From Opitutaceae bacterium (lineage in GTDB: Bacteria; Verrucomicrobiota; Verrucomicrobiia; Opitutales; Opitutaceae), in contig PLXR01000027.1 in the NCBI GenBank assembly GCA_003151495.1, positions 56,581-106,869 on the forward strand: 50,289 nucleotides of DNA, given 5' to 3'. The notes under the pieces are model-generated. The model worked only from the letters and a program-made list of their open reading frames with translations, did no database searches and was not told the DNA's origin. Every line of letters starts with the position of its first letter. Positions within the stretch are counted from its first letter, which is position 1. Of the stretch, positions 31,797-48,636 are shown in pieces. Position numbers and translations under genes: made by a program.

Positions 31797-34700
31797 TCAA
31801 GGGGGGTTTTGGGACGCGCCCGCGGAAAGCGTGACCGTCGCCGCGCCGGGGGGCACGGCGTGCTCCGTCTGCGCGCCCGAGGGCCACCGCACGAGGATCC
31901 GCCGCGGCGGGGCGCCCTCGGCGTATCCAAAGAAGCATGTCGGCGTCGACTGGCTGTAGTACCCCGAGCCCGCGTACACCTCCGCGGTCTCCCTCGACCC
32001 GTCGGCCCTCTCGAGCGTCACGCGTGCGCCGACCCCCGTCGGGTTGCCGGCGGGCCCGCGCAGGACGACCGAGAGTGGCCGCCGGCCCGCAACCCCCCCG
32101 TTCCGGAAGGCGAGCGTCGTGCTGTTGTTTCGCGTGACGACGAAGCCGGGGCGGCCGTCCTGGTAGAGGTCCGCTACGGCAAGCGCCTTGGCGTCGCCCG
32201 GGACCACGAGCCCGCTCTCGGCGGGCCCCACAGCGGCGAAGTGCCCCGCGCCGTCCCCCTTCAGGAGCTGGCTGAGCCCCGAATCAAAGCGGCCCACCGT
32301 CGGGATGGGCGCGTAGCTGTTCTGCACCGCATAGATGTCGGCGTGGCCGCCCGCCAGGAAATCGCCGGCCACCAGTCCCTGGATGACCGAGATCTGCGCG
32401 ATCCGCGGGAGCGGCTCGAACCGGTAGGTGCCGTCGGGCTGGCTCAGGAAGACGCCGCTCCTGAACTCCGTCGCCGCGAAACGCCTGGCCTTGGCGAGCC
32501 GATCCTCGCCCAGGATCTCGCCGAGCGTCGCCCTGGCGTAGGAGTCGGTGTTCGGAAAACGCCTGAGGACCGACGGCACCGAGGCGCCGAGCACCTTCCT
32601 GCTCCGCCACGGATAGAGCCTGTCGCCCTCGTAGTAGGCCTCGATCAGCTGCGCGGGCCCGCCTCCGCCCCTGAAGTCCCCCGAGAAGAGGAGGGCGGGG
32701 TGGGCGGGGTCGGCGTGGTACTGGGTGTTCAGCCCAAGGTTGCCCACCACGAAGTCGGGCCGGCCGTCTTCATTGAAGTCCGCAGCCGCTATCGAGGTCC
32801 ACCAGCCCGTGCCGGCCGAGGCGAACCCCGCCTTCTCGGTCCAGTCCTCGAACCCGCGGCCCTGGCTGTTGTGGAAGAGCCGGACGCTGCCCCACTCAAG
32901 CGTGAGGAGGAGGTCGGGCCAGCCGTCGCCGTCCACGTCGCTCCAGACGGCCCCCGTCACCATGCCGACCTCGCGAAGGCCGGGAGCAACGGAGTCGGTC
33001 ACGTCCTCGAACCGGCCGCCGCGGTTGGCCAGGAGCGCGCTCCGCGGGGCCTGGGGGTAGCTTCCCGGCAGGACGCGGCCCCCGATGAAGAGCCCGAGGC
33101 GCCCCGAGTGGTCGAAGTCCGCCGCGGCGACGGCCCCGGCATTGATCGCAAGCGGGGGAAGGGCGTCGTCCGGCGCCGGGCGGAACGCGCCGTGTCCATC
33201 ATTCAGGTAGAGCCTGGGCTGGTATTCCTGGGCGCCCGCGGGGAGCGCGTTGCCTCCCCGGGTGACCAGGAGGTCGCGTCGGCCGCCCCCGGAGGCGTCA
33301 AAGAGGAGCACGGGCCCATCGTCGGCGGGCGGCTTGTCCGCCGCCGCCGGCGCCGGCGAGTCGGCGTAGCGCCCGGGGCCGCCCGAACCGAGGATCCTGA
33401 GCGGATCCAGGGTGGTCCCTCCGATCACCACGTCGTCCCGCCCGCTCCCGGTCACGTCCCCCACGGCGAGCGCGGGCCCGCGGCGGTTGAGGCGGAAGGG
33501 GATCAGCTTCTGGAGGTAGGTCTCGAAGACCTCCTCCTCGCGCGACGTGGCTGAGAGTCCGCTGGCGCCGGCCACCTCGGCAAAGAGGGTCGCCGGCGCC
33601 GGCGGCGCGGGCGGGACCGCGAACGGGCCGGGGGGTTCGGTCACCGTGTAGCGCCTGTCGACGGGCAGGTTCTCGAAGGCCTGCTCACGCCCGTCCGGCC
33701 AGGTGACCACCATCCGCCGGATCACCGTGTCGGTCCCGAGGCCGAAGTGGAGCATGGGCTCGCTGCTCGACATGTACCCCCGCGCCAGGACCAGCGGCCG
33801 CACCTGGACGCCGAGCGCGCTCTCGACCCTGACGGTGGCCCCGACGCCGAACCGGTTGGACGCCGTTCCGCGGAGGTAGACGTTCACCCGGTGCCCCGAG
33901 TCGGCGTCGTTTCTCATGACCGTGACCCCGCCCTCGTAGTCAATGTAGACGGCGTCCAGGTTGCCGTCGCCTCCCAGGTCCCCGAACGCGCACCCGAAGG
34001 AGACGCCCTTCTGGTCCAGGCCCCACTCGGCACCCACGTTCTCAAACTTGAGGTCCCCCGTGTTGCGGAACGCGAAATGGCTCTCGGCCCGCATCGGGGT
34101 GCCGCGCAGGATGCGGATCCGCTCCGCCGCGGATCCCGCCCTGCTCGCGCGCTCGATCACGTCGGAGTCGGGGCTGCGGTTGAAGCCGTTCGTGACGAAC
34201 AGGTCGAGCCGCCCGTCGTTGTCCAGGTCCTCGAACCGGGGCGACCAGGTCCAGTCGGTAGCCGAGATCCCGGCCATGATCGCCGCCTCCTCGAGCCGTC
34301 CCGTGCCCGTGTTGACGAGAAGCGCGCTCCGGTTGTACTTCGGGGTCGGGGCCGAGGTCTCGCGGTTTCCCTCGCGCTCGCCCGCCATGAACCTCTGGTC
34401 CTTCTCGTGCGAGCTTGCGGCCATGTCCGCCACGAGGAGGTCGATCCGCCCGTCGTTCCTCACGTCGCCCAGGTCCGAGCCCATGGAGAAGGAGGAGGTG
34501 TGGGGGAGGACCTGGTCGATCACGTTCGTGAACGTCCCGTCGCGGTTGTTGCGGTAGAGCCTGTCGGGGACGCCGTAGTCGTTGGCGACGTACAGGTCGG
34601 GCCAGCCGTCGTTGTCGAAGTCCCACCACGTCGCCGAGTGGCTCTGGGTCTCGCCCGAGATTCCCGCTGGCTCCGTCGCGTTCGTGAAGGTCCCGTCGCG

Positions 34701-35414
34701 GTTGTTGTGGAAGAGGTAGCCCCGCTGGCCGCTCGGATGGGCCCCGCTGTCGAGGAGGTTCACGGTGAGGTACATGTCGAGCCAGCCGTCGCGGTCGTAG
34801 TCGCAGAACGCGGCCATGACGCTCGCGTCCCTCACATCGAGCCCGTACGCGTGGGCCGCCTCCCTGAACGTCCCATCCCCCCGGTTGATGTACAGGAGGT
34901 TCGGCGCGTTGAAGCGGCAGACGTAGAGGTCGAGGAGCCCGTCGTTGTTCACGTCGACGAAGGTCGCCCCGAGGTTCCAGACGCCCGCCTCGGCGCCCAC
35001 GCCGGCCTTGGAGGTCACGTCCTCGAATCGGTACCCGCCCAGGTTCCGGAAAAGCCGGCACCCCCTGGTCTTGGTGACCACGAAGATGTCGGGTCGCCCG
35101 TCGCCGTCGTAGTCCCCGATCGCGATGCCCGTCCCTATCGATCCGTCCTCGAACTCGTGGTAGAGTTCGCCCCACATCCTCGGGTCGTCGTAGGGGTTCT
35201 CGACCTTCACCCCGGTGTCCTCGGCGGGAAGCCGCGTGAACATCGTCCTGCCCCTCGGCTCGGGCCGCCTCTCGAACGGCTGGCCCGTGATTGCCGGCCC
35301 CGCGTCCGCCCCGCGGCCGAGCGTGCACACCGACAGCGCCAGCAGAAGCCAAAGCTGGGACGGTCGTGCCGCAGCGCTCACCCCCCTCGGTTTGCGGTTC
35401 CGGTCGGCAGGCAT
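31797..35414 (-). CDS. Secreted FG-GAP/ASPIC-UnbV protein 2 (two seven-bladed propellers)
   Basis: 1205 residues from the ATG at 35414. Signal peptide at about 1-38 ('LWLLLALSVCTLGRGADA'). Same architecture as its downstream neighbour: seven calcium loops from 'DYDGDGRPDIF' (about 100) to 'DLGGDGNLDAV' (about 480), ASPIC/UnbV at about 505-590 with 'RGYMSSSEPMLHFGLG' and 'MVVTWPDGREQAFENLP', a second set of seven looser loops from 'DVTGSGRDDVV' to 'DLYQDGRPGFV', and a final ASPIC/UnbV ending with 'RILVRWPSGAQTEHAVPPG'. It is closer to FG-GAP protein 3 than to protein 1 at several landmarks ('DTVIRRM', 'NPYDD.RMWGELY'). It is transcribed divergently from a GT-C membrane protein across 143 bases and probably heads a two-gene transcript with protein 1. 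Role inferred as surface-exposed glycan or protein binding. Confidence 0.87.
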   Translation of the reverse strand: MPADRNRKPRGVSAAARPSQLWLLLALSVCTLGRGADAGPAITGQPFERRPEPRGRTMFTRLPAEDTGVKVENPYDDPRMWGELYHEFEDGSIGTGIAIGDYDGDGRPDIFVVTKTRGCRLFRNLGGYRFEDVTSKAGVGAEAGVWNLGATFVDVNNDGLLDLYVCRFNAPNLLYINRGDGTFREAAHAYGLDVRDASVMAAFCDYDRDGWLDMYLTVNLLDSGAHPSGQRGYLFHNNRDGTFTNATEPAGISGETQSHSATWWDFDNDGWPDLYVANDYGVPDRLYRNNRDGTFTNVIDQVLPHTSSFSMGSDLGDVRNDGRIDLLVADMAASSHEKDQRFMAGEREGNRETSAPTPKYNRSALLVNTGTGRLEEAAIMAGISATDWTWSPRFEDLDNDGRLDLFVTNGFNRSPDSDVIERASRAGSAAERIRILRGTPMRAESHFAFRNTGDLKFENVGAEWGLDQKGVSFGCAFGDLGGDGNLDAVYIDYEGGVTVMRNDADSGHRVNVYLRGTASNRFGVGATVRVESALGVQVRPLVLARGYMSSSEPMLHFGLGTDTVIRRMVVTWPDGREQAFENLPVDRRYTVTEPPGPFAVPPAPPAPATLFAEVAGASGLSATSREEEVFETYLQKLIPFRLNRRGPALAVGDVTGSGRDDVVIGGTTLDPLRILGSGGPGRYADSPAPAAADKPPADDGPVLLFDASGGGRRDLLVTRGGNALPAGAQEYQPRLYLNDGHGAFRPAPDDALPPLAINAGAVAAADFDHSGRLGLFIGGRVLPGSYPQAPRSALLANRGGRFEDVTDSVAPGLREVGMVTGAVWSDVDGDGWPDLLLTLEWGSVRLFHNSQGRGFEDWTEKAGFASAGTGWWTSIAAADFNEDGRPDFVVGNLGLNTQYHADPAHPALLFSGDFRGGGGPAQLIEAYYEGDRLYPWRSRKVLGASVPSVLRRFPNTDSYARATLGEILGEDRLAKARRFAATEFRSGVFLSQPDGTYRFEPLPRIAQISVIQGLVAGDFLAGGHADIYAVQNSYAPIPTVGRFDSGLSQLLKGDGAGHFAAVGPAESGLVVPGDAKALAVADLYQDGRPGFVVTRNNSTTLAFRNGGVAGRRPLSVVLRGPAGNPTGVGARVTLERADGSRETAEVYAGSGYYSQSTPTCFFGYAEGAPPRRILVRWPSGAQTEHAVPPGAATVTLSAGASQNPP

Positions 35415-35557
35415 CTTCGGTGGCAGTAGGACGAACGCCCGTCGGGGTAGTCAAGGAACGTTTGCCGCGCCTTGTTCCAGAGGACTTTACTTGCCCGGCG
35501 TCCCCCTGTCCTCTTGCATCCGCCCCTCCCATGACCGGCTGAGAAAGGACGATCCGC

Positions 35558-37975
35558 TTGAAGAGCCCCCCAAAGTTCACCCCGCGCGCCTGGATGCTCG
35601 TCCCGGTCCTTGCCCTGGGGTTCTTCTGCCTCGTCACCACCCTGCGGATGCGCCGCGTCCTGCACGTGTCGGCGATCGGCCAGCCCGCGTCCCCCGCGCC
35701 TGCGTGGCGCCCGCGCCTTATCGTCCCGGGACACCTGAACGAGTCGTACAAGTGGCTCGACCAAACCAACCAGATGTTCTTGCTCGGCGAAGGGCGGGTC
35801 CGGCATGTCGGCTACGAGAACGCCCCGGCGGGCCACGACGTGAACACCGCCTCGCCGTACCGGTGGTGGCTCGGGATCCTCGCCCTTGCAAGGAAGGCTG
35901 TGACCGGCTCCGGAATCGGGTCCTGCGTTGAGTGGGCCGCGCTGATCTCGGACCCTCTCCTCCTTGTGCTCCTGGGGACCGTGGCGGTGGTCGTCGTCGC
36001 GCGCCGGTTCGGCGGCCTGGCGGCGGCGCTCCTCTCCGCGGGCCTGGTCTCCCTGTACCCGTTTGCCTCGGAGTTCATACCCGGGGCGCCGGACGACCGC
36101 GGGCTTACCCACCTGCTTGCACTGTGGAGCCTGCTTCCGATCCTGACCGCGGTGGTCCGCGATCCGGGCTCAACGACCGCAAAGGGGGTTCGCCGCGCGT
36201 TCTTCGGGGCGGGTGTCGTAGGCGGGATTGGGCTTTGGATCAGCCCGGCGGCCCAATTGCCGATCCTCCTGGGGATCGCCGCAGGAGCGGTGATCTCGGC
36301 CTGGGCCCTCCGGCCGGGCTCGGGCCGGCCGGAGGCCATGGCCGGCGAACCCCTGCCCTGGCGCGCATGGGCTCTCGGCGGCGCCCTCACCAGCCTGGCG
36401 GCCTACCTCGTCGAGTTCTTTCCGAGTGCGATGGGCTCATTTGAGCTCCGTTCCATCCATCCGGTTTACGGTGTCGCCTGGATGGGGGGCGGAGAGCTGG
36501 TTGCCCTGGCCTGTGCCCGGATCCAGGGTCCCTGGGAGCGTCGGGGCGCAAGGGGCTGGACGCTCGCCGTTTTCGCGTTGGCCGCCGTCGTGGCGGTCCC
36601 TGCGACAATCTGGCTCTCCCAAGGCGCAGACTATCTGATGGAGGATCTCTCCATGACTCGGTTGTCCCTGCTCCAGGACAGCCCCTCGGCGGGTGGCCTG
36701 TGGTCCTGGCTCCGTCAAGATGGGTTTACCTCCACGGTCTGGATCACATTCATCCCCGTCTTGGTGGCGGCACCCGCCATCGCCGTCCTGACACTCCGTT
36801 TGTCTGCCCCTGGAAAGCGGTCGGCGATCGCCATCGCCCTCGGACCCCTGGCAGTCGCCCTGGGCTTTGCCGTCCGAGAGCTGAGCTGGTGGAATGGGGT
36901 CGACGCGGCGCTCCTGCTCCTCGCGGTCGCGGTGACGGGCGCCCTTGAGGGTTCCCCACGGCGGCGCCTGGTCAACTGGGCCTCGGCCGCTCTCGCAGCG
37001 GTGATCCTGATACCCGGCGCCGTCCGAATCTGGCCCTCAGGGGGAGTCGACGATTTCACACAGGGCGAAGTGGTGGGGCTGGTGGAGCGGGACCTGGCCT
37101 ACTGGCTCGCGCAGCACATCGGACAGGCCAACGCGATCGTCCTGGCGCCCCCCAACACGACCGCGTCCCTCTATTACTATGGGGGAATCCGCGGATTGGG
37201 CACCTTCGACTGGGAAAGCCGCGACGGGACCCGGGCCGCCGTGCGCATCGTGAGCGCCCTCACCCCAGAGGAGGCCCAGGAGCTGATCAACAAGCGCGGG
37301 ATCACACACATCGTGATCCCCGGATGGGATCCCTATCTAGATGGCTACGCCCGCATCGGCCAGGGGCAGGTGGGGGGCACCTTCCTGGAGCGGCTTCATC
37401 TCTGGATCCTCCCGGCATGGATCCGGCCCGTCCCCTATCTCGTGCCGACGATATCCGGGTTTGAAGGGCAATCGGCTGCCATATTAGAGGTTGTTGAGGA
37501 TCAAGATGATGCAACCGCCGCAAGCCGGATGGTCGAGTACCTGATCGACACGGGACAGATGGATCTGGTGCCCAACGCGGCCAAGGTGGTGCGCCGGTTC
37601 CCGGCGGACCTCGGAGCGCTTCTGGCCAAGGCTGAGATTGCGATTGCCCAGGGTAACACGGAGGAATTCTCACAGGACGTGGACACGCTAATCCGCCGTT
37701 TGGGAGGCGATGCCGACCAGACGCTAGCCTGGGACCAGCGCGTCAACCTCGCCGTGGTGCTCGCCCAGGCGCATCGCATGGACCTGGCCGCTGTGAGGCT
37801 CAAGCAGTGCCTCGACGAGGCCGACGACGAGAAACTTCGGTCGCTCAGCACGAATTCGCTCTACCGCCTCCATGTCCTGCGGAAGGCCCTGGGATTGACG
37901 ATCAAGGACCCGGGCCGCCTCGAGTTATCCCTCGAACTTCTTCCGTCCGACCTCCGTGAGCGTCTCAGGGAATAG
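35558..37975 (+). CDS. STT3-like (GT-C fold) membrane protein with TPR-like tail, copy 1
   Basis: 805 residues from a TTG at 35558, supported by AAAGGA eight bases upstream. One N-terminal helix is followed by a periplasmic loop, then about ten more helices up to about 480, a soluble alpha/beta segment ('GITHIVIPGWDPYLDGYA') and helical repeats from about 650 to the end. The loop near 86-106 ('YENAPAGHDVNTASPYRWWL') resembles the 'yP.G.pv....Pl..wl' region of STT3/PglB-type oligosaccharyltransferases, and 'IPGAPDDRGLTHLLAL' near 174-189 resembles the 'GR.DHHGLE' helix motif. The usual first Asp of the catalytic loop is not clearly present ('NESYKWL'). It is divergent from FG-GAP protein 2 and 218 bases ahead of the TonB receptor. 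It may transfer or bind a lipid-linked sugar, or be a degenerate non-enzymatic relative. Codon use is less GC-biased than in copy 2. Confidence 0.7.
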   Translation: MKSPPKFTPRAWMLVPVLALGFFCLVTTLRMRRVLHVSAIGQPASPAPAWRPRLIVPGHLNESYKWLDQTNQMFLLGEGRVRHVGYENAPAGHDVNTASPYRWWLGILALARKAVTGSGIGSCVEWAALISDPLLLVLLGTVAVVVVARRFGGLAAALLSAGLVSLYPFASEFIPGAPDDRGLTHLLALWSLLPILTAVVRDPGSTTAKGVRRAFFGAGVVGGIGLWISPAAQLPILLGIAAGAVISAWALRPGSGRPEAMAGEPLPWRAWALGGALTSLAAYLVEFFPSAMGSFELRSIHPVYGVAWMGGGELVALACARIQGPWERRGARGWTLAVFALAAVVAVPATIWLSQGADYLMEDLSMTRLSLLQDSPSAGGLWSWLRQDGFTSTVWITFIPVLVAAPAIAVLTLRLSAPGKRSAIAIALGPLAVALGFAVRELSWWNGVDAALLLLAVAVTGALEGSPRRRLVNWASAALAAVILIPGAVRIWPSGGVDDFTQGEVVGLVERDLAYWLAQHIGQANAIVLAPPNTTASLYYYGGIRGLGTFDWESRDGTRAAVRIVSALTPEEAQELINKRGITHIVIPGWDPYLDGYARIGQGQVGGTFLERLHLWILPAWIRPVPYLVPTISGFEGQSAAILEVVEDQDDATAASRMVEYLIDTGQMDLVPNAAKVVRRFPADLGALLAKAEIAIAQGNTEEFSQDVDTLIRRLGGDADQTLAWDQRVNLAVVLAQAHRMDLAAVRLKQCLDEADDEKLRSLSTNSLYRLHVLRKALGLTIKDPGRLELSLELLPSDLRERLRE

Positions 37976-37994
37976 GTTCAAAAATAATTTGGCT

Positions 37995-38193: not shown

Positions 38194-41100
38194 ATGCCTG
38201 CTAATCGTACTCTAGCGCTGTTGCGTGCCCTCACGGTCACCTCGGCGCTTGGTTTTGCGTTAGTGCCTCGACTCGCGGTCGCCCAGACCGCCCCTGCAGC
38301 TGAAACAACGACTACAACGACGACGACCGCCACCACGGTCGCACCCGGAGCTTCCGATACGGAAGAGCCGACGGTGCTCTCGCCGTTCGTCGTTGACGCG
38401 GCTGAGGACAAGGGAAGCTACAAAGCCAACAGCACGTTGGCCGGAACCCGCGTCCGCACCGACCTCAAGGATGTCGCCTCGGCGATCACGGTCGTCACGG
38501 CGCAGTTCCTCCAGGACACTGGCGCGAAGAACGCCTCGGACCTCCTGGTCTACACGCCGAGCACGGAAGTCTCGGGCATCCGCGGTAACTTCTCCGGTGC
38601 TGCCGGTGCCGCCGTCGCCCAGGAAAACACCGTTTCGGCGACCACCCGCGTTCGCGGCCTGGATTCAGCCGACAACACACGTGACTACTTCCTGACGGAC
38701 ATTCCGTGGGACTCGTTCAACGTGGGTCGCGTCGATCTCCAGCGCGGACCGAACTCGATCCTCTTCGGCACGGGCAGCCCCGCCGGTATCATCAACGTGA
38801 GCACGAACGGCGCGTCCTTCGCGAATTCGTACAACATCACGAACCGCTTCGATGAATACGGCTCGATCCGTAACTCCGCCATGCTGAACCAGGAACTCAT
38901 CCCTGGCGTGCTGGCCATCCGCCTCGCCGCCCTGAAGGACGACGAGAAGTATGAGCAGTCCGACGCGTTCAACAACACGACCCGCTACTACGGCGCGTTC
39001 CGCTTTGATCCGAAGCTGTTCGGAAAGGACAGCCACACGAGCATCCGCGGCAACTACGAGTACGGAAAGCAGACCTCGGACAACCCGCGCTCACTTCCCC
39101 CGGAGGACCAGATCACTCCTTGGTTCGCGAGCACCATCACCTTTGGCGGGGTCACGAACCCCGGCTACCAGAAGGTCATCGTCAACCAGTACAGCCTGAC
39201 GAACTTCAATCCGGCGGGTGGCCCCCCGCTCCCGGGCGCCAACGGCAGCGCCCTTGACCAGGCCTACTTCAGCGGGCTCGGCGGCAACGCCGAGGGACGC
39301 TCCTATTGGGCCGACATCGTCAACTACTACGAGGCCACACCGGTCGGGCAGAACAACATCCCGAACGCGAATGCCCCTTCCGGCACGCCGATCAAGGTGA
39401 TCACGGCTGAAGCCAACGTGGGCTTGGTCAAGGGTCAGTACGGCCAGGGTGGCAGCAGCATCGGCGGCCTCGGAACCTTCCGCCCCGATGGCATTCCCGC
39501 GACCAGCGGCATGACCAGCTTCTTCGGGTCAAATCCCACGACACCGAGCAACGGCGTCCCCGCCAACTACCGGGTACCGACGCTTCCGATCCCCGGCGGC
39601 GTATACTACACGGACAGGGTCATCATGGACCCCACGATCTTCAACTTCTACAAGAAGCTCCTCGATGGCCCGAACAAGCACGAGTGGAAGAACTGGAGCG
39701 CATTCAACCTCGCGCTGGACCAGACGTTCTTCGACGACCGCGTGGGCTTTGAGATCGCGTACGACCAGCAGAAGTACACCGAAGGCGCCGAGCCCTGGCT
39801 CGAAGGCCAGAATTACTCGATCAACGTCGACGTTAACGCGACCTACGCCGACGGAACGATTAATCCGAACGCCGGACGTCCGGAAGTTGCCCAGGCCGCC
39901 TCAGGTGGTGAGGACAACAACTACCAGTCGACGACCTCCCGCCAGACGTGGCGCCTCACGCCCACGTTTGAACTCCGCGCTTCCGACTTCTTCGGCAACT
40001 CGACACTCACGAAGATCCTCGGCAAGAGCGTCCTAACGGGCCTCTACGAGAAGACGACGGTACGCAACGAATACTTCCAGTTCGGTGAGTTCGCGACAAC
40101 GCCGAGCTACCTGGCCACCAACAACCTTCCGACGGCCAACATCGTCAACGCGGTGGGTTCAACCGGAAGCTTCGAGTGGCGCGCCTACCTCGGGCCCGCG
40201 ATGCAGGGATACCCCTCCGCCCATGGCTTGAACTTGAACAGCATCAACTACGTCATCGCTCCCCCCAGGAACGAGACGACGCTCAACTTCAATTCCACGT
40301 GGATCAAGCCGACGGACCCGAACACGCCCGGCTACGTCGATCCGACCGCGCCCTACTCGTACACAAACAACGTGAACGGCTCGGTCGTTACCAACAGCAT
40401 CCAGTACGAGAACCCGGCCAACTACGCCGGCTGGCAGAATGAGACCGTTGGCTACGAGAGCTGGGCCAACCCGTCTGACCGCTCCGACCTGGTCACCGCG
40501 GCCAACAAGAGCCGCTACCAGGACGAGTCCCAGGGCATCACCTGGCAGGGCTACTTCCTGGGTGGCGACTTGGTCCCGTCGCTCGGCTGGCGCAAGGACA
40601 AGGTCACCGACTACCAGACGAACGCCGTCACGAACCCGAGCACCGGAATCACAAGCCTCGATTATCCCGAGAACCTTGGTTCCCGCACGGACAACCAGGG
40701 CGTCAGCAAGACCTGGGGCGGTGTCTATCACTTCCCGAAGAGCCTCATGGAGAAGCTCCCCGGCGACATTACGCTCAGCGCGTTCTTCAACAAGTCGTCG
40801 AACTTCAAGCCTGACGCGGCTCGCCTGAGCCTCGCCGGCCTCCCGATCCCGAGCGCCCTGGGTCACACCTCGGAGTACGGATTCACCACGACGGCCCTGA
40901 ACGACAAGATCTCCCTCAAGGTCGACTGGTTCAAGACGATCGTGAAGAACGCCGACTTGGCCGGCACGAATGGCAATTCGATCGCCGGTCTCGGCGCGAA
41001 CGGCTACTTCCTCGCCGACGGCGTGATCTGGGGTTACGGCTGGGCGGCCGCCCTGCAGGAAGGCCTCGCGGGCAGGACCCCCAACACGAACTACTGGGAT

Positions 41101-42060
41101 TACGGCAACGGTTCCGGCTACGCCACGGGCAGCGCCCAGTACATCGCGACCAACGCCTACTCGGCGCAGATCGTGAACGCCTGGCTCAACATCCCGCTCG
41201 CGGACGCCTACTTCGGAAGCTACGGCGTGACGCCCGCCATTCACCCGTCGCTCGCCAAGTCCAGCGGTCAGCTGGTCTCGGCCTTCCTGAACGGCTACAA
41301 CGATCTCACCGCCCCGAACGTTGGCGGCGGCTCGAACTTCGGCGACCACATCACCACGGTCGACAACGAATCCAAGGGCGTGGAAGTCGAGCTGACAACG
41401 CAGCTCACGCGCAACTGGAACGTCACGTTGAACTACTCGAAGGTGAACGCGACGCACGCCAACGTCGACCCGGCATCACAGGCCTTCATCAGCAAGATGA
41501 CCGGCTTCATGAACGGACCCGGTGGCCAGGTCCGCATGTGGTGTAACGGTTGCGGCACCCTCGGTGCCGACTGGAACTCCTCGATCGTCGCTCCTTGGAC
41601 GGTTGAGCTGAACGACCAGGGTCACGCCGCTCCTGAGGTGTCCCCTTGGAGGTTGAACGTGATCTCGACCTACACGTTCGATCGTGGCCCCGCGAAGGGT
41701 ATCTTCGTCGGTGGCGCCCTCCGCATGGAGGCTTCCCGTATCCTCGGATACAAGTACAACCCGAACTTCAACAACGTGAATTCGACCGACCCGAACTATG
41801 CTAACGTCCTCGCCGTCACCCAAGGCGGTCTCGACGTGAACCAGCCGTTCAAGGGTCCGAATGACACGCACCTTGACGCGTGGGTTGGCTACTCGAGGAA
41901 GATCTACAAGAACGTGAACTGGCGCGTGCAGCTCAACCTGCGGAGCGTTGGCGAGAAGGACCACCTGACCCCGTCTCAGTACGAGCCGGATGGCAGCCTG
42001 GCCCTCGCCCGCATCCAGCAGGGCATGGGTTGGACGCTCGAGAACTCGTTCGACTTCTAA
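38194..42060 (+). CDS. Large TonB-dependent outer-membrane receptor
   Basis: 1288 residues, in the long size class of SusC-like receptors. Signal peptide at about 1-30 ('SALGFALVPRLAVAQ'), a Thr-rich linker (about 36-48), then a TonB-box-like 'TVLSPFVVDA'. Plug domain at about 75-200 with 'TRVRTDLKDVASAITVVT', 'VRGL', 'VDLQRGPNSILFGTGSPAGI' and 'INVSTNG'. The rest is beta-barrel strands rich in aromatic and Asn residues, closing with 'GWTLENSFDF' and a C-terminal Phe as usual for Bam-inserted barrels. No carboxypeptidase-like N-terminal domain and no neighbouring SusD were seen. It probably imports an oligosaccharide or other large ligand using TonB energy; mannan fragments are a guess from the surrounding mannoside genes. 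Two strong promoters, a structured leader and a strong terminator suggest high, independent expression. Confidence 0.95.
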   Translation: MPANRTLALLRALTVTSALGFALVPRLAVAQTAPAAETTTTTTTTATTVAPGASDTEEPTVLSPFVVDAAEDKGSYKANSTLAGTRVRTDLKDVASAITVVTAQFLQDTGAKNASDLLVYTPSTEVSGIRGNFSGAAGAAVAQENTVSATTRVRGLDSADNTRDYFLTDIPWDSFNVGRVDLQRGPNSILFGTGSPAGIINVSTNGASFANSYNITNRFDEYGSIRNSAMLNQELIPGVLAIRLAALKDDEKYEQSDAFNNTTRYYGAFRFDPKLFGKDSHTSIRGNYEYGKQTSDNPRSLPPEDQITPWFASTITFGGVTNPGYQKVIVNQYSLTNFNPAGGPPLPGANGSALDQAYFSGLGGNAEGRSYWADIVNYYEATPVGQNNIPNANAPSGTPIKVITAEANVGLVKGQYGQGGSSIGGLGTFRPDGIPATSGMTSFFGSNPTTPSNGVPANYRVPTLPIPGGVYYTDRVIMDPTIFNFYKKLLDGPNKHEWKNWSAFNLALDQTFFDDRVGFEIAYDQQKYTEGAEPWLEGQNYSINVDVNATYADGTINPNAGRPEVAQAASGGEDNNYQSTTSRQTWRLTPTFELRASDFFGNSTLTKILGKSVLTGLYEKTTVRNEYFQFGEFATTPSYLATNNLPTANIVNAVGSTGSFEWRAYLGPAMQGYPSAHGLNLNSINYVIAPPRNETTLNFNSTWIKPTDPNTPGYVDPTAPYSYTNNVNGSVVTNSIQYENPANYAGWQNETVGYESWANPSDRSDLVTAANKSRYQDESQGITWQGYFLGGDLVPSLGWRKDKVTDYQTNAVTNPSTGITSLDYPENLGSRTDNQGVSKTWGGVYHFPKSLMEKLPGDITLSAFFNKSSNFKPDAARLSLAGLPIPSALGHTSEYGFTTTALNDKISLKVDWFKTIVKNADLAGTNGNSIAGLGANGYFLADGVIWGYGWAAALQEGLAGRTPNTNYWDYGNGSGYATGSAQYIATNAYSAQIVNAWLNIPLADAYFGSYGVTPAIHPSLAKSSGQLVSAFLNGYNDLTAPNVGGGSNFGDHITTVDNESKGVEVELTTQLTRNWNVTLNYSKVNATHANVDPASQAFISKMTGFMNGPGGQVRMWCNGCGTLGADWNSSIVAPWTVELNDQGHAAPEVSPWRLNVISTYTFDRGPAKGIFVGGALRMEASRILGYKYNPNFNNVNSTDPNYANVLAVTQGGLDVNQPFKGPNDTHLDAWVGYSRKIYKNVNWRVQLNLRSVGEKDHLTPSQYEPDGSLALARIQQGMGWTLENSFDF

Positions 42061-42462: not shown

Positions 42463-45400
42463 TCAGCTGCCGGAGGGTGTGAGGATCAGGGAGGAGGCTC
42501 CGGGAGGCACGGCCTGCGTTGTCGAGGCCCCTGTCGGCCAGCGGACGATTGCCCGTACCGGAGGGTTGCCTGGCGTGAAGCCGAAGAAGCAGGCCGCTGC
42601 GGACTGGCTGTAGTAGCCCGAGCCCGCGGTGATCTCGCCCATGCGCCGGGACCCGCCGGCAAACTCGACAGTGATGCGTGCGCCGACGCCGGTGGGGTTG
42701 CCCGCGGGTCCCTTGAGCCGAATGCAGATCGAGCGCCCTCCGGGTACGCCGCGGTTCCTGAAGGCGAGCGTCGAATTGTTGTTCCTGCTGACGACAAGGC
42801 CGGGCCAGCCGTCGCGGCCGAGGTCGAGCACCGCGAGGGCCTTGGCATCGTCCGTCACGATGATCCCGCTCTCGTCGGGGGGAACGGCCGTGAAGTGGCC
42901 GTGTCCGTCGCCCCTGAGGAGCTGGCCCAAGCCGCCGTCAAAGCGCCCGACGCTGGGAATCGGGGCGAAGGAATTCTGAACGGCGACAATGTCGGCGTTG
43001 CCGTCCCCGTCGAGGTCGAGGGCCGCCAGGCCCTGGACGGGGGCGATCTGGGCGATCCGGGGAAGGGACTCGAAACGGTAGGTGCCGTCGGGCTGGCTCA
43101 GGAACACGCCGCTCCTGAGCTCCGTGGCCGCGAACCGCTGGGCGGCCTGGAGCCTGTCGTCGCCCACGATCTGGCCGAGCGTGGCGTGGGCGTAGGCGTT
43201 GTTCTTTGGGAAGCGCCTGAGGATGGAGGGGAAGACGGCGCCGAGTTCCCTGCGCGTGCGCACGGGGTAGATGCGGTCGCCCTCATAGGCCGCCTCGATG
43301 AGCTGGGGCTCCCCGCCGTCGCCGCTGAAGTCGCCGGAGTAGAGGAGGGTGGGGCGCTCGGGGCTGGCCCGATAGGGCGTGTTGAGGCCCACGTTCCCGA
43401 CCACGAAGTCGGGCCGTCCGTCCCCGTTGAAGTCCGCGGAGGCGATCGAGGTCCACCAGCCCGTGCCCCCCGACGAGAAGCCGGCCTTGTCGGTCCAGTC
43501 CTCAAGCCTGCCCCCTGCGTTGTGGAAATACCTGACCTGGCCCCACTCGAGGGTCAGGAGCAGGTCGGGCCATCCGTCCCCGTCGACGTCGGACCAGAGA
43601 ACTCCGGTCACCATCCCGACCTCGCGCAGCCCCGGGGCGAGGGCGTCCGTCACGTCCTCGAACGTGCCGCCCCGGTTTGCGAGGAGCGCGCTCCTCGGGG
43701 CGGCGGGATACAGGCCCGTCCGCACCCTTCCGCCGATGAAGAGGCCGAGGCGGCCGCTGTGGTCAAAGTCTGCGGCGGCGGCGGCGCCCGCGTTGAGGGG
43801 CAGCGCGGGAAGCGCCCCCTCGGGTGCGGGCCTGAGGCCCCCGCGCCCGTCGTTCAGGAGGAGCCGCGGCTGGTACTCCGGGGAGCCGTCGGGAAGCGCG
43901 TTGCCCCCGCGGGTGACGAGGAGGTCCTCGCGGCCGGTTCCGGCCGCGTCAAGGAGGAGAAGGGGGCCGTCGTCCGCCTGGGACGGGTCGGGGGGCGCCG
44001 GGCTGGGAGCCGCGGCGAACGGTCCGGCTGCCGGGCGTGCCAGGACCGAGACGGGGTCCTCGGTCGTCCCGCCGATCACGACGCAGTCCTCGCCGCTCCC
44101 GGCGAGGTCCCCGACGACGACGGAGGGTCCCCGCCGGTTCAGGCGGCGCGGCAGGAGCCTCTGGACCGCGGTTTCGTCGATCGCCCCCTCGCGGGAGGAG
44201 ACCGCTAGGCCCGTTGCCTGGGAGACCTCCTCGAACTGGCGGGTGCGGGGAACGGGTGCGGCCGGGGACGGGGCGGGTCCCGGGGGCTCCGTGACGGTGA
44301 AGCGCATGTCGGCCGGCAGGTTCTCGAATGCCTGCACGCGGCCGCTCGGCCAGGTCACCGTCATGCGCCGGATCACCGTGTCGGCCCCCAGCCCGAAGTG
44401 AGCCATGGGCTCGCTGCTCGACATGTACCCCCTCCCCAGGGCGAGCGGCCGGGCCTGGACGCCGAGCGCGCTCTCCACCCTCACCATGGCGCCGATGCCG
44501 AGGCGGTTCGAGGCCGTTCCCCTGAGGTCGACGTCGACGCGGTGCCCCGAGTCGTTTCCGTTGCGCAGGACGGTGACGCCGCCGTCGTAGTTCACGTACA
44601 CGATGTCGAGGTTGCCGTCGCCGCTCAGGTCGCCGAGGGCCGACCCGAAGGCGACACCCTTCTGGTCGAGGCCCCAGGCCGGACCCACGTTCTCGAACCT
44701 CAGGTCGCCCAGGTTCCGGTAGGCGAGGTGGGCCTCGGCGAACACGGGGCTTGCGCGCATGATCCGAAGCCTCTCGGCCGGCGTGTCGGCCCCGGCCTGC
44801 CGCGCCAGGATGTCGATGTTGTGGGCCTCCCGGTACATGCCGTTGGTCACGAAGAGGTCGAGGCGGCCGTCGTTGTCCAGGTCCTCGAAGCGCGGCGACC
44901 AGGTCCAGCCGGTGGCGTCCAGCCCGGCGAGCTGGGCGGCCTCCGTGCAGCGGCCCGTCCCAGTGTTCAGGTAGAGCGCGTTGCGCTCGTACTGGGGGGC
45001 GGTCCGCGGGTTGCCGTCGTCCTCGGTCGTTCGGCTGCGGGAGTCCGCCATCCCCCGCTGGTCCTGCTCGCGCGAGGCCTCGGCCATGTCGGCGACGAAC
45101 AGGTCGATCCGCCCGTTGTTGAGCAGGTCTCCCATGTCGGATCCCATCGACGAGTATGGGGTGTGCGGCACGACGGCGTTGATCACGTCCGTGAACGTGC
45201 CGTCGCGGTTGTTGCGGTAGAGGACGTCCGGCGCCGCGAAGTCGTCGGCGACATAGAGGTCGGGCCACCCGTCGTTGTCGAAGTCCCACCACAGGGCGGA
45301 ATGGCCGTGGGCCTCGCCCCTGATCCCGGCGCGCTCCGTCACGTTCGTGAAGGTGCCGTCGCCGTTGTTGTGGAAGAGGTAGTTCCTCTGCCCGCCCGGG

Positions 45401-46077
45401 TGCTCATTGTTGTCGAGGAGGTTCGTCTGGATGAAGACGTCGAGGCGCCCGTCGCGGTCGTAGTCGCAGAAATAGGCCATCGCGCAGGCGTCGACCACGT
45501 CCAGGCCATACGCATGGGCCATCTCCCTGAAGGTCCCGTCGCCCTGGTTCACGTAGAGGAGGTTGGGGGCGTTGAAGCGGCAGACATAGAGGTCGAGGAG
45601 GCCGTCGTTGTTGATGTCGACGAAGGTCGCCCCGGTGTTCCAGATGCCCGGCGCGGCGCCGACCCCCGCCCGGGCGGTCACGTCCTCGAAACGGTAGCCC
45701 CCGAGGTTCCGGAAGAGCCTGCATCCCCTCGTCTTGGTCGCGACGAAGAGGTCGGGCCGCCCGTCCCCGTCATAGTCGCCGATGGCGACGCCGGTGCCGA
45801 TCGCGCCGTCGGCGAGCTCGGGGTAGAGCTCACCCCACATCCGGGTGTCGTCGTAGGGGTTCTCGACCCGGATCCCCGTCTCCCCGGGCGCCAGCTCGGT
45901 GAACATCGTCGCGCCGCGGGGGGGCGGGCGCGGGGCCAGGGGCCTCTGGCTGATCCCCGGGTCCGAGGCGCCCGCCAGGACCGCGACCGGCAGGAGCACG
46001 ATGCCCGCCAGCCGCCTCGCGCGGCCCTGGATTCCGCGGCTCTTGGGGATTTCCGGGGGTACCATGGGCGTGACCAT
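42463..46077 (-). CDS. Secreted FG-GAP/ASPIC-UnbV protein 3 (two seven-bladed propellers)
   Basis: 1204 residues from the ATG at 46077; an ATG at 46065 would shorten it by four, and upstream in-frame codons give no better signal. Signal peptide at about 1-35 ('RLAGIVLLPVAVLAGAS'). First propeller with seven loops from 'DYDGDGRPDLF' to 'DLSGDGNLDIV', ASPIC/UnbV with 'RGTASNRLGIGAMVRV' and 'MTVTWPSGRVQAFENLP', second propeller with seven loops from 'DLAGSGEDCVV' to 'DLGRDGWPGLV', and a closing ASPIC/UnbV ('GPAGNPTGVGARITVEFAGG', 'YYSQSAAACFFGF'). Length and order are nearly identical to proteins 1 and 2. It is divergent from GT-C copy 2 across 126 bases, repeating the arrangement of FG-GAP protein 2 with copy 1. 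Probably displayed at the surface; ligand unknown. Confidence 0.87.
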   Translation of the reverse strand: MVTPMVPPEIPKSRGIQGRARRLAGIVLLPVAVLAGASDPGISQRPLAPRPPPRGATMFTELAPGETGIRVENPYDDTRMWGELYPELADGAIGTGVAIGDYDGDGRPDLFVATKTRGCRLFRNLGGYRFEDVTARAGVGAAPGIWNTGATFVDINNDGLLDLYVCRFNAPNLLYVNQGDGTFREMAHAYGLDVVDACAMAYFCDYDRDGRLDVFIQTNLLDNNEHPGGQRNYLFHNNGDGTFTNVTERAGIRGEAHGHSALWWDFDNDGWPDLYVADDFAAPDVLYRNNRDGTFTDVINAVVPHTPYSSMGSDMGDLLNNGRIDLFVADMAEASREQDQRGMADSRSRTTEDDGNPRTAPQYERNALYLNTGTGRCTEAAQLAGLDATGWTWSPRFEDLDNDGRLDLFVTNGMYREAHNIDILARQAGADTPAERLRIMRASPVFAEAHLAYRNLGDLRFENVGPAWGLDQKGVAFGSALGDLSGDGNLDIVYVNYDGGVTVLRNGNDSGHRVDVDLRGTASNRLGIGAMVRVESALGVQARPLALGRGYMSSSEPMAHFGLGADTVIRRMTVTWPSGRVQAFENLPADMRFTVTEPPGPAPSPAAPVPRTRQFEEVSQATGLAVSSREGAIDETAVQRLLPRRLNRRGPSVVVGDLAGSGEDCVVIGGTTEDPVSVLARPAAGPFAAAPSPAPPDPSQADDGPLLLLDAAGTGREDLLVTRGGNALPDGSPEYQPRLLLNDGRGGLRPAPEGALPALPLNAGAAAAADFDHSGRLGLFIGGRVRTGLYPAAPRSALLANRGGTFEDVTDALAPGLREVGMVTGVLWSDVDGDGWPDLLLTLEWGQVRYFHNAGGRLEDWTDKAGFSSGGTGWWTSIASADFNGDGRPDFVVGNVGLNTPYRASPERPTLLYSGDFSGDGGEPQLIEAAYEGDRIYPVRTRRELGAVFPSILRRFPKNNAYAHATLGQIVGDDRLQAAQRFAATELRSGVFLSQPDGTYRFESLPRIAQIAPVQGLAALDLDGDGNADIVAVQNSFAPIPSVGRFDGGLGQLLRGDGHGHFTAVPPDESGIIVTDDAKALAVLDLGRDGWPGLVVSRNNNSTLAFRNRGVPGGRSICIRLKGPAGNPTGVGARITVEFAGGSRRMGEITAGSGYYSQSAAACFFGFTPGNPPVRAIVRWPTGASTTQAVPPGASSLILTPSGS

Positions 46078-46203
46078 GCAGGACCGCCCAAAATGACCCG
46101 TCAAGAGAGAGTTCGGGGTCCTCGGTCCGGACTCTCCTTGCGCCGGGCCCCCCATGCGGTTCAATGGGCGCCTTCCCAGCAACGGTTGCCCCGAATGACC
46201 TGA

Positions 46204-48636
46204 ATGAGCCTTTCTGCCCGGATCTTACCGCGCCTGTGGGTGATCGTCCCGGTGTGCGCGCTCGGCTTCCTGGCATGGGCCGACAGCGCACGCGTGCAGA
46301 GGATGGCGGCCGTTTCTGGCCTCCAGGGCCGGGCGAGGGCCGCGGACCAGATCGACCGGCGCTCCCCGACGGGCTACGCCGACGGCCAGCGCGAGCTGAT
46401 CGTGCCCGAGGCGAACCCCGCGAGCTTCCAATGGATCGCGCAGGCGCAGCTCATGTTCTCGCGCCGCGAGGCGCGCGTGCGCCACGTCGACTACGAGAAC
46501 GCCCCCAACGGCCACGACGTGGAGGCGGCCTCGCCCTACCGCTGGTGGCTGGGCCTGGTCGCCCTCGTTGACCACCGGCTCTCCGGCAGGCCGGTCGGGC
46601 TGTCCGTGGAACGCGCGGCGACCTACGCCGACCCGGTCCTCCACGCGATCCTCATCGCCCTCGCAGGCGCCCTCGTCGGCTGGCGGCTCGGGCCGCTTTC
46701 GGGCGCCCTCGCGTGCGCGGGCCTGGCGACCTTCTTCCCGTTCGCGGCGCGCTTCCTCCCGGGCATGCCCGACCAGCCGGGGCTTGAGGCCGCCTGCGGG
46801 TTCGGGAGCGTTCTCCTGCTTCTGGCGGGCGCGGCCGCGCCTAGGCGTGGCCGGTGGTTCGCCCTCGCGGGCGTCGTCGGCGGGCTGGGCATGTGGGTCG
46901 ACGTCCGCAGCCAGGCGCCGGTCACGGCCGGCATCGTCCTTGGAGGGTTCCTCGCGGCCTGGGCGTGCCGACCGAAAGGGGATGCCCCTGGAACCCCGGG
47001 TGAGGGCCTTCCGTGGGGGACATGGGCGCGCTGGGGAGGGGCCTCCGTGCTCGCGGTGTGCCTGGCGGAGTATTTCCCGTCGCACATGGGATCGCTTAGG
47101 ATGGAGTCGGTGCACCCGCTCTACGGGGTGGCGTGGATCGGCGCGGGCGAACTGCTCGAGATGGGGACGGCGAGGTTCCGCGGGGTGGCCCCTGCGTGGG
47201 GTCCGCGCTCCATGGCCCGTGCGGTCGCCGCGGCCCTGGCGGTTGCGGCCGTTCCGGCCGCAATCCTCGTGACGGGTGCGTGGGGACACCTTGTCCAGGA
47301 CTCCTCCTGGGCGCGCCTGAGCCTCCTGCCGAACGCAGCCGTGGCGGCGAGCACCGGGGCGTGGCTCGTGCGCGACGGATTCACGGCCGAGGCCTGGGCC
47401 ACCCTCCTGCCGCTCCTGGCGCTCCCGCTGGCGGCATGGATGGTGGTGCGCCCCTCGACCGCATCCACGACCCGCACCGCCCTCGCGGTGGCCCTCGGGC
47501 CCGCCCTCGTCACGGGCGCGGTGGCATGCGGACAGCTGGGCGCGTGGGGGATGTGCGACGCCGCGCTCCTCGCACTCGGGGTCGCGGCAACCTGCGGAGG
47601 GGCCGGCCGGTCACCCCTGCGCTGGGCATGGGCGGCCCTGACCCTCGCATGCGCGGCGGCCGGGCTCAGCCAGCTCGCGCCCGCGGGCACCGCCCCTGCC
47701 GAACCCCGCCTCACCCCCCGGGAGTCCGGGGAGCTGGTCGAGCGGCACCTTGCCCACTGGCTCGCGAGGAGGGCCGGGGAGGAGGGGATCGTGGCCTACG
47801 CCTCGCCGGACGTGACCGCCGGATTGTGCTTCTTCGGCGGGCTCCGCGGCCTCGGGACCCCGGCGCCGGACAACGGGGCCGGCTTCGGCGCCGCGCTCAA
47901 CATCGCCGCCTCGCTCACGATGGAGGAGGCGCACAACGGCCTTGTCGCGCGCGGGGTGAAGTATGTCGTGGTGCCCTCGTGGGACCGGTTCTTCGATGAT
48001 TTCGCGCGCCTCTACCTGGACAAGCGGTTCGCGACCCGGCCCAATTTCTTCGTCGGGGAGCTGCGCAGGTGGAATGTCCCGGGCTGGCTCCGGCCCGTGC
48101 CCTACCAGATGCCGGTGGGGGGCGGGTTCGAGGGACAGTCCGTCCAGGTCTTCGAGGTGGTCGACGAGCAGGCGCCCTCGGCGGCCGCCGGGCGGCTGGC
48201 GGAGTACATGGTCGAGACGGGGGACCTCGATAGGGCCGCGGCCCTGGGCGTGGCCCTCCGGAGGTACCCGGGCGACGTGGGGGCCCTTGTCGCGCGGCTC
48301 GAGGTGGAGGGCGCGCGCGGCGACGCGGCCTCCGCCGGGCGGACCCTGGACGAGCTCCTGGCGAGGATCTCGAGCGGCGGGGACAGGTACCTTCCCTGGG
48401 ACCGCAGGGTCAGCCTTGCGATCGTGCTGGCGCAGGCCGGGCGCGCTGAGCTGTCGCGCGCCCAGGCGGGCCAGTGCCTCCAGGCCGCGAGCGAGGCGAG
48501 GCTTCGGTCGCTCTCCACCGGCTCGCTCTACAACCTGCTGGTGATCGGCCGCGCATTCGGAATCGAGATCGCCGACCCCCGCCTGCGCGAGATTGCGCTC
48601 GACCTCCTGCCCGACGACCTGCGCAGCCGGCTCTGA
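46204..48636 (+). CDS. STT3-like (GT-C fold) membrane protein with TPR-like tail, copy 2
   Basis: 810 residues from the ATG at 46204 (MSLSARILPRLWVIVPVCAL). Same layout as copy 1: N-terminal helix, periplasmic loop with 'DYENAPNGHDVEAASPYRWW' near 96-115, about ten further helices with 'LPGMPDQPGLEAACGF' near 185-200 and 'HPLYGVAWIGAGELLEMG' in the middle, a soluble segment 'GVKYVVVPSWDRFFDDFARL', then helical repeats from about 655 ('RLAEYMVETGDLDRAAALGV') to 'LLPDDLRSRL'. The position of the first STT3 Asp is again not acidic ('NPASFQWI'). The strict conservation of the YENAP.GHDV..ASPYRWWLG loop between copies shows it matters. It is divergent from FG-GAP protein 3, so each GT-C copy has an FG-GAP partner. 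Enzyme activity is uncertain; a role in building or attaching a surface glycan is a hypothesis. Confidence 0.7.
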   Translation: MSLSARILPRLWVIVPVCALGFLAWADSARVQRMAAVSGLQGRARAADQIDRRSPTGYADGQRELIVPEANPASFQWIAQAQLMFSRREARVRHVDYENAPNGHDVEAASPYRWWLGLVALVDHRLSGRPVGLSVERAATYADPVLHAILIALAGALVGWRLGPLSGALACAGLATFFPFAARFLPGMPDQPGLEAACGFGSVLLLLAGAAAPRRGRWFALAGVVGGLGMWVDVRSQAPVTAGIVLGGFLAAWACRPKGDAPGTPGEGLPWGTWARWGGASVLAVCLAEYFPSHMGSLRMESVHPLYGVAWIGAGELLEMGTARFRGVAPAWGPRSMARAVAAALAVAAVPAAILVTGAWGHLVQDSSWARLSLLPNAAVAASTGAWLVRDGFTAEAWATLLPLLALPLAAWMVVRPSTASTTRTALAVALGPALVTGAVACGQLGAWGMCDAALLALGVAATCGGAGRSPLRWAWAALTLACAAAGLSQLAPAGTAPAEPRLTPRESGELVERHLAHWLARRAGEEGIVAYASPDVTAGLCFFGGLRGLGTPAPDNGAGFGAALNIAASLTMEEAHNGLVARGVKYVVVPSWDRFFDDFARLYLDKRFATRPNFFVGELRRWNVPGWLRPVPYQMPVGGGFEGQSVQVFEVVDEQAPSAAAGRLAEYMVETGDLDRAAALGVALRRYPGDVGALVARLEVEGARGDAASAGRTLDELLARISSGGDRYLPWDRRVSLAIVLAQAGRAELSRAQAGQCLQAASEARLRSLSTGSLYNLLVIGRAFGIEIADPRLREIALDLLPDDLRSRL

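Follow-up and report, generated by a model that had tools for sequence, protein, structure and literature searches.

An oligosaccharyltransferase-fold membrane protein as a candidate non-catalytic partner of CRTAC1-like double propellers in Opitutaceae

We analysed a window of 50,289 nucleotides (positions 56,581 to 106,869 of contig PLXR01000027.1, assembly GCA_003151495.1) from an Opitutaceae bacterium, in which genes for large FG-GAP/ASPIC-UnbV proteins adjoin genes for GT-C-like membrane proteins with the fold of the oligosaccharyltransferase STT3. The window extends to the end of its 106,869-base contig, and the host genome is 80% complete with 4.1 Mb. The two genes are inherited together as a unit in Opitutaceae and near relatives, frequently with a TonB-dependent receptor alongside. 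The STT3-fold partners are one clade, in which the pocket residues of its relatives and of true STT3 enzymes are largely gone and other residues have become conserved. We propose, with a probability of roughly 55%, that in glycan-uptake loci the double propeller formed by the FG-GAP protein has, probably through a single recruitment, gained an STT3-fold protein as its membrane partner, one that is non-catalytic or re-tooled. The genes concerned are the following:

28151-31765, minus strand: third FG-GAP/ASPIC-UnbV protein, in tandem with the pair 1 FG-GAP gene (reading frame, Pfam)
31797-35414, minus strand: pair 1 FG-GAP/ASPIC-UnbV protein (reading frame, Pfam, structure model, CRTAC1 fold match)
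35415-35557, no strand: pair 1 divergent intergenic region, 143 bases
35558-37975, plus strand: pair 1 STT3-fold GT-C-like membrane protein P0003 with C-terminal TPR-like helices (structure model, fold search)
38194-42060, plus strand: TonB-dependent receptor, a loosely associated neighbour of the pair (Pfam Plug domain)
42463-46077, minus strand: pair 2 FG-GAP/ASPIC-UnbV protein (reading frame, Pfam)
46078-46203, no strand: pair 2 divergent intergenic region, 126 bases, carrying a GTCAAG site
46204-48636, plus strand: putative pair 2 STT3-fold-family GT-C-like membrane protein P0006 (homology to P0003)

Reading frames, Pfam matches and identities agree with the initial annotation on the frame coordinates, the divergent layout, the paralogy of the pairs and the receptor between them. 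The FG-GAP proteins of the two pairs are 68% identical, P0003 and P0006 41%. That annotation had counted two FG-GAP genes; both are present, but the third, tandem paralogue (70% identical to the pair 1 FG-GAP protein) had been overlooked. It had also described the pair as duplicated. The pairs are indeed paralogous, but the duplication is old, judging from the GT-C tree and from another locus, L023, with the same order (FG-GAP, FG-GAP divergent from GT-C, TonB receptor, FG-GAP divergent from GT-C, the last gene cut at the contig end). A recent duplication was rejected: the two GT-C proteins fall into different subclades, and each has closer relatives in other genomes. A third GT-C copy of the host genome, on another contig and 46% identical to P0003, has one FG-GAP gene divergent from it and another convergent downstream.

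We surveyed 57 genomes, host included, and found GT-C matches in 25 and the FG-GAP class of about 1200 residues in 18. The FG-GAP search was restricted to E<=1e-100 and to at most 12 scored candidates per genome, so that fragments at contig ends were missed. Linkage was counted for 52 of the 69 GT-C rows, 17 short or weak rows being excluded. An FG-GAP gene lay within 1.5 kb in 33 of the 52 (24 divergent, five co-directional with FG-GAP first, two with GT-C first, two convergent); of the other 19, five had a more distant FG-GAP gene and 14 had none on the contig. For comparison with chance, GT-C genes were placed at random in three single-contig genomes, with 5000 trials. Genome G015 has four divergent pairs, against a maximum of two in the random placements, and G032 has two, against a maximum of one; the single pair of G025 was reached in 28 of the 5000 trials. 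In these three genomes the pair arrangement departs strongly from chance. The initial annotation had suggested such a comparison, which bears it out: pairing exceeds random placement, and the GT-C homologues in the FG-paired clade share the FG-GAP context. Homologues outside this clade stand in other gene contexts.

In a wider census, profile mapping of 82 stretches (80 loci plus L004 and the window) identified 70 full-length GT-C copies. An FG-GAP gene lay within 1 kb of 58 of them and of none of the remaining 12. The arrangement in the 58 was divergent in 47 (six of these also convergent), co-directional with FG-GAP first in six (50-105 bases between the matches) or GT-C first in three, and convergent only in two, at a contig edge. 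Since 40 loci had been found through two peptide patterns, one of which (SPYRWWL) is typical of the paired clade, this census over-samples that clade.

The distance matrices of the FG-GAP and GT-C proteins correlate with r 0.94 over 50 pairs, a value reached in 0 of 5000 within-genome partner swaps (best 0.924). At the 27 loci with a TonB receptor, the correlation between GT-C and FG-GAP is again 0.94 (0.935 allowing for the receptor), while that between receptor and FG-GAP is 0.33 (-0.19 allowing for GT-C). No part of the GT-C protein was singled out by co-evolution (r 0.92 for the membrane part, 0.83 for the C-terminal domain, 0.81 for the TPR part and 0.74 for the first loop). It could be argued that the genes are neighbours without a functional tie, carried together by duplication and transfer. 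Linked genes may match in distance merely because they travel together, and there are many paralogous copies (three GT-C genes in the host genome, seven in G015). However, the nearby receptor travels with the pair much less, adjacency persists although the gene order flips between divergent and tandem both ways, and the residue loss described below accompanies pairing across genomes; we regard a mere neighbourhood as very improbable. The earlier proposal of a functional unit is borne out by linkage in multiple genomes, in several orientations and with matched distances, and FG-GAP and GT-C almost certainly form a real unit.

What kind of protein the membrane partner is could not be read from family databases. 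Pfam and NCBIfam scans assigned the GT-C proteins to no family, with chance-level matches only at E<=10; the Pfam STT3 family (PF02516) matched neither them nor anything else in the host genome, and a PDB profile search with the GT-C alignment gave two chance-level matches only. An AlphaFold model of P0003 built with 40 sequences (pLDDT 87.2, pTM 0.85) was more informative. Its fold search returned 22 PDB chains at E<=0.001, all of them oligosaccharyltransferases (AglB, PglB, STT3) or DPY19, three within translocon entries; 3wak was matched with Z 20.9 over 585 residues at 4.6 Å. In the model we counted 13 transmembrane (TM) helices by eye from the helix list. Residues 504-646 match the C-terminal domain of AglB (3vu0, 2.7 Å over 131 residues) and residues 649-805 match TPR-type helical repeats, so that the predicted structure has both the multiple TM helices and the C-terminal periplasmic domain of the STT3/AglB fold. 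In addition, hhalign aligned the family profile over 468 columns (E 8.8e-7, probability 91) with L102, an STT3 that Pfam recognizes and that comes from a distant genome within the phylum (AglB match 1.3e-14), though not with a second Pfam-STT3-positive protein, L103. Because of the structure matches and the alignment to L102, the STT3-like label of the initial annotation is right for the fold.

The model of the pair 1 FG-GAP protein (residues encoded by 31818-35354; pLDDT 82.9, pTM 0.83) has its best PDB match in murine CRTAC1 (9etn, E 1.2e-25, 606 columns, TM-score 0.72 by target length). By Pfam, each FG-GAP protein carries 7-8 FG-GAP_3 stretches and two ASPIC/UnbV stretches. FG-GAP repeats, ASPIC/UnbV domain and CRTAC1-like fold are thus all present; with two UnbV stretches and this layout of repeats, one protein of about 1200 residues comprises two CRTAC1-like halves.

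We then compared the GT-C copies at the positions that form the pocket of oligosaccharyltransferases. Position 62 of P0003 was equated with the first-loop Asp of AglB by its constant spacing to a downstream Pro-x-Gly stretch and to Trp66. Five positions were scored: 62 (Glu allowed), 179, 180, 181 and 443. A copy was called paired if it had any FG-GAP match within 1.5 kb, including the shorter FG-GAP proteins at L025 and L028 that the 70-copy census omits. All five canonical positions are kept in one of 60 paired copies (L047) and in 17 of 30 unpaired ones. Asp62 is found in 3/60 paired copies versus 26 of the 27 unpaired copies readable there (three are gapped); the paired ones have Glu in 21 cases and eleven residue types overall. 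The corresponding numbers are 41/60 versus 25/30 for Asp179, 2/60 versus 22/30 for His180, 20/60 versus 23/30 for His181 and 19/60 versus 25/30 for Arg443. The window proteins follow this pattern: the first-loop catalytic Asp is replaced by E in P0003 and A in P0006, the DHH-type motif of external loop 2 (EL2) by DDR and DQP, the Arg of EL6 (position 443) by S and G, and the WWD-type motif of AglB by APPNTTASL and ASPDVTAGL. Unpaired homologues, from other classes of the phylum or from the family itself (L079, L081, L092, L100), mostly keep D62, DHH (179-181) and R443.

In a tree of 90 GT-C copies, rooted on the most distant ones, a single clade of 66 (support 0.949) contains all 60 paired copies, and the 24 copies outside it are all unpaired, five of them lying within 1.5 kb of a stretch end. 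All five positions are present in 17 of these 24, the rest lacking one or two or being gapped, compared with 1/66 inside the clade. The first-loop Asp occurs in 21/21 readable copies outside and 8/66 inside, where Glu takes its place in 21 more. Conservation is at least 85% outside but below 45% inside at twelve positions (62, 87, 96, 97, 180, 181, 296, 298, 299, 300, 443, 551); on the model they would map to periplasmic loops, loop ends of TM4 and TM12, or the C-terminal domain. The change at position 87 is from D to either E or D, barring one A. Conversely, 17 positions became conserved inside the clade (including P100, Y101, R102, W104, P168, G176, W384, W445, W516 and D591), mostly in or near periplasmic parts, with some within TM helices (A128, L129, G239).

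A follow-up test expected canonical residues in genomes where no FG-GAP protein of the class was found, and used the longest GT-C copy of each of seven (G011, G017, G023, G033, G035, G036, G052). D62 is present in 5/5 readable copies, D87, W97, H180, E298 and N300 in 7/7 each, R443 in 6/7 (one Q) and DHH in 6/7 (EHQ in G011). As these genomes keep most of the canonical residues, the loss goes with the FG-GAP partner. A second, partial copy of G052 has Phe at 443, G227 yielded only a short GT-C piece, and L135, a partial GT-C gene from an FG-bearing genome without an FG-GAP match in its 7.1 kb, has Ser443 and Ala551. L131-L134 proved to be the same contigs as L036, L043, L039 and L049 and were not counted as new evidence. 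The altered genes look maintained: the ratio of nonsynonymous to synonymous substitution rates (dN/dS, NG86) in five GT-C comparisons is 0.13, 0.19, 0.33, 0.41 and 0.28, rough values with dS near saturation in several; 38 of 40 loci have a stop-free translation across the GT-C match, and 28 columns are invariant among 40 GT-C sequences. These sequence measures indicate purifying selection on the paired GT-C protein and no overall decay.

Judged from these residues, the paired GT-C protein is very probably not a standard oligosaccharyltransferase. The initial annotation had offered modification of the propeller by the GT-C protein as one function of the pair. This idea has lost ground, since pocket residues kept by related copies have been lost from the clade, and glycosylation motifs are not in excess in the FG-GAP proteins: 66 of these contain 4.7 N-X-S/T sequons per protein versus 5.6 in shuffles, 0.29 D/E-X-N-X-S/T versus 0.68, and 2.4 D-S/T-(AILVMT) versus 4.2. 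These counts give no sign of heavy glycosylation, although single sites are possible, and the idea that a normal oligosaccharyltransferase glycosylates the propeller is not supported.

The chief rival to our proposal is that the paired GT-C protein has kept glycosyltransferase activity through a rebuilt active site (in which Glu/Asp87, for example, would be the acid and the donor or acceptor would differ) and is dedicated to the neighbouring FG-GAP protein. Pilins, for instance, can have their dedicated transferase encoded next to them. In favour of this reading, the acid at 87 is conserved, Asn88, Glu286 and His301 mostly so; the newly conserved positions (Pro100, Tyr101, Arg102, Trp104, Trp384, Trp445, Trp516 and Asp591 among them), the one-to-one co-inheritance and the fold of protein-modifying enzymes also speak for it. 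On the other hand, the WWD-type stretch is replaced and the sequons are not enriched. An excerpt of PMC6801728 describes a common acidic motif just after TM1 of GT-C enzymes, essential in various members, whereas position 62 is as variable here as given above. Residue loss and sequon counts lower the likelihood of a rebuilt active site, and we consider it unlikely.

A non-catalytic GT-C protein is probable on the residue pattern, and if it is non-catalytic, a role in docking or assembly is quite likely. Anchoring or partnering, also offered by the initial annotation, now fits best. In the recruitment that we propose, an STT3-like transferase would have been joined to a double-propeller gene, probably once. 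Most of the lipid-linked-sugar and metal pocket would then have been lost, and oligosaccharyltransferase activity on lipid-linked sugar would have stopped. The periplasmic face (the first loop, the top of TM2, and the C-terminal domain with its TPR-like tail) may have turned into a docking surface for the propeller. This face would bind the propeller during or after export and fold it, hold it or pass it towards the outer membrane and the receptor. Each GT-C copy would serve its own propeller, while the receptors of the TonB-dependent uptake system could change. The propeller might in turn bind a plant or algal glycan, or bridge a glycan to the receptor. More tentatively, and at slightly less than even odds, the Opitutaceae proteins may be generalized as 'pseudo-OSTs', that is, non-catalytic partners with the oligosaccharyltransferase (OST) fold, one per CRTAC1-like double propeller, which make up the two-protein core module of different TonB-dependent glycan-uptake loci.

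Several observations weigh against this proposal. Catalysis may survive the loss of canonical residues, and residue 87 is acidic (E or D) in 60/60 paired copies, with Asn88, Glu286 and His301 mostly kept. Position 62 is Glu or Asp in 24/60 paired copies, Asp179 remains in 41/60, and the paired copy of L047 (10007-12421) looks intact (E,D,H,H,R); it is possibly an intermediate. For six GT-C copies of the clade, the nearest 1.5 kb contain no FG-GAP gene (L027, L039, L056, L082 and the second copies of L096 and L098); these second copies adjoin a paired GT-C gene, and L082 adjoins a small FG-GAP gene. FG-GAP proteins also exist without a GT-C gene (2/7 in the host genome). Only 29 of 50 pairs have the same nearest neighbour in both distance matrices. 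The TonB receptor is not wholly free, as its r of 0.33 with FG-GAP lies above most within-genome swaps (3/3000 reach it), so that a weak tie remains. Finally, the GT-C fold would lie in the inner membrane and the FG-GAP and TonB proteins further out, so that contact between GT-C protein and propeller needs a handover step.

Around the pairs lie these further genes:

23288-24511, plus strand: 2-epimerase-type protein (GlcNAc 2-epimerase family), a sugar-locus neighbour (Pfam GlcNAc_2-epim 2.1e-47)
24508-25776, plus strand: GH130 beta-mannoside phosphorylase-type protein (Pfam PF04041 1.3e-17)
25793-28141, plus strand: alpha/beta-hydrolase, esterase-like (NCBIfam esterase/PHB depolymerase matches far below cut-off; longer frame 25619-28141)
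48758-50155, plus strand: cellobiose/GlcNAc 2-epimerase-type protein (Pfam/NCBIfam; signal-like N-terminus by eye; start perhaps 48785)

By their family names, the GH130 and epimerase genes would point to mannose-containing glycans. The initial annotation had also suggested that both proteins of the pair might handle a glycan imported through the receptor; this may be so, with GH130 and 2-epimerase genes close by but a receptor that is loosely linked to the pair. Homologues of the alpha/beta-hydrolase adjoin FG-GAP genes at L022, L023 and L025 on the locus map. Among the 82 stretches, an epimerase occurs in 13, GH130 in 10 and a match to a sugar-type AraC regulator in 11. These counts, and a promoter-like motif common to FG-GAP genes, could mean that GT-C and FG-GAP proteins both act on an imported or surface glycan and not on each other, and are neighbours through control by one sugar signal. 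We find this quite improbable: the GT-C fold is not glycan-degrading, and epimerase, GH130 and AraC genes are absent from most stretches while the pair stays, although the stretches are short. The motif moreover belongs to only one of the two genes.

This motif, GTCAAG, is found in 34 of 42 divergent spacers, mostly at a similar place, whereas the best 6-mer in 100 base-shuffled sets reached 19. Read on the FG-GAP strand it is CTTGACT, often followed by N12 and GTTYGTCC, with the ATG some 9-16 bases further on. CTTGACT lies within 260 bases upstream of 35/68 FG-GAP genes and of 0/69 GT-C, 0/30 TonB and 0/25 TMTC-like genes (for the last, see below). Because of this distribution, a shared operator for the pair was rejected; the site belongs to the FG-GAP side. 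Bare CTTGACT is not rare (two in the window versus 2.6 expected), and its position is what counts. With up to two mismatches, CTTGACT-N12-GTTYGTCC occurs seven times in the host genome (three exact, one with one mismatch, three with two; reversed control 1). Each of the exact sites precedes an FG-GAP gene, the tandem one included, and the small frame whose 5' end has the one-mismatch site resembles an FG-GAP protein by eye. The sites are:

31795-31801, minus strand: CTTGACT of the third FG-GAP gene, part of CTTGACT-N12-GTTYGTCC
35449-35455, minus strand: CTTGACT (-35-like), 35 bases before the pair 1 FG-GAP start codon
G000:C50:6457-6483 and G000:C2:21890-21916: further CTTGACT-N12-GTTYGTCC sites before FG-GAP genes

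The third FG-GAP gene starts 31 bases past the end of the pair 1 FG-GAP gene, and its motif overlaps that end. In pair 2 the site is very near the first ATG, so that the FG-GAP start may be the second ATG (46065). FG-GAP genes seem, from these sites, to have a promoter type of their own; as the ATG follows so closely, their messages may be almost leaderless, and an alternative sigma factor is our guess.

Recurrent neighbours, each in 11-18 of the 82 stretches, are a small FG-GAP protein, a TPR protein (c7), an AraC-type regulator with a sugar-binding-like domain (c8) and TMTC-like proteins. The last is our own label for membrane-plus-TPR proteins in which Pfam matched the TPR part only; that their membrane part is of GT-C type was judged by eye. 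At L067, L069, L072, L077, L078, L081 and L100, unpaired GT-C relatives with canonical residues have at least one TMTC-like gene adjacent; such groups may be true protein-glycosylation clusters invisible to Pfam STT3. Two more FG-GAP genes of the class occur in the host genome; the stretches fetched around them (20.0 and 14.9 kb) contain no GT-C match, and one of the genes is 1 kb from a contig end. At L019 (5505-14446, G000:C9), an FG-GAP gene of the same class without GT-C lies alongside genes for a TPR+FG-GAP protein and a shorter FG-GAP/ASPIC protein. Upstream of the locus (11202-17605, plus strand) are two large adjacent proteins, one with NHL repeats and the other with Ig-like/He_PIG domains (1066 and 1018 aa). 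An ARAGORN call of tRNA-Val (cac) at 31270-31347 (plus strand), opposite the third FG-GAP gene, is probably false; Rfam has no entry in the window.

Both kinds of protein are known, and as far as we searched, their pairing and the lost pocket appear undescribed. No paper that came up appeared to concern an FG-GAP/GT-C pair (those on UnbV with ASPIC have titles on different topics, and another deals with a methanotroph S-layer), and none came up on TonB-dependent receptors and polysaccharide utilization loci (PULs) of Verrucomicrobiota or Opitutus, in literature that excluded most subscription journals, which makes this absence weak evidence. Other enzyme folds have been reused as binding partners, and we know of no oligosaccharyltransferase fold reused in this way in bacteria. 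There is a fair chance that the pair is a new sort of module. If our proposal is true, membrane proteins unnamed by Pfam gain a role, FG-GAP/ASPIC propellers of unknown function gain a testable partner, and sister copies with intact and lost pockets are available for comparison. If the proteins are active instead, they would be GT-C glycosyltransferases without the usual acid of the superfamily, which is equally surprising. Most organisms of the family are uncultured, and the gene pairs suggest that an enzyme fold has been reused as a partner protein in their sugar-uptake gene clusters.

Of the known systems, STT3, AglB and PglB (together with the DPY19 C-mannosyltransferases) share with the paired GT-C proteins the fold over about 585 residues, the long first periplasmic loop and the C-terminal periplasmic domain. 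In contrast to them, the FG-paired clade mostly lacks the first-loop Asp, the DHH-type motif, the EL6 Arg and the WWD-type stretch, has a TPR-like tail and is not matched by Pfam STT3. The propellers resemble CRTAC1/ASPIC-UnbV proteins in their Pfam domains (FG-GAP_3, UnbV_ASPIC) and in their best PDB match, 9etn, but combine two halves in one bacterial protein of about 1200 residues and have a co-inherited membrane partner. As in SusC/SusD-type PULs, a TonB-dependent receptor lies near carbohydrate-active enzyme genes (GH130 and epimerase). No SusD-type Pfam match was found among the scanned window proteins, some small frames being outside the scan, and we would guess that the double propeller takes the place of the SusD-type partner. 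Eukaryotic TMTCs combine a GT-C part with TPR according to an excerpt of PMC7801869. The TMTC-like proteins found near several GT-C genes, paired and unpaired, have an N-terminal membrane part plus TPR and are a separate family from the paired proteins. A further parallel is PIG-U of the GPI transamidase, whose GT-C fold is regarded as non-catalytic. It is eukaryotic, has an unrelated partner and gives a weaker match (7w72 chain U, which we take to be PIG-U, is in the fold list with Z 9.5), but the paired proteins may, like it, be a GT-C fold serving as a non-catalytic subunit.

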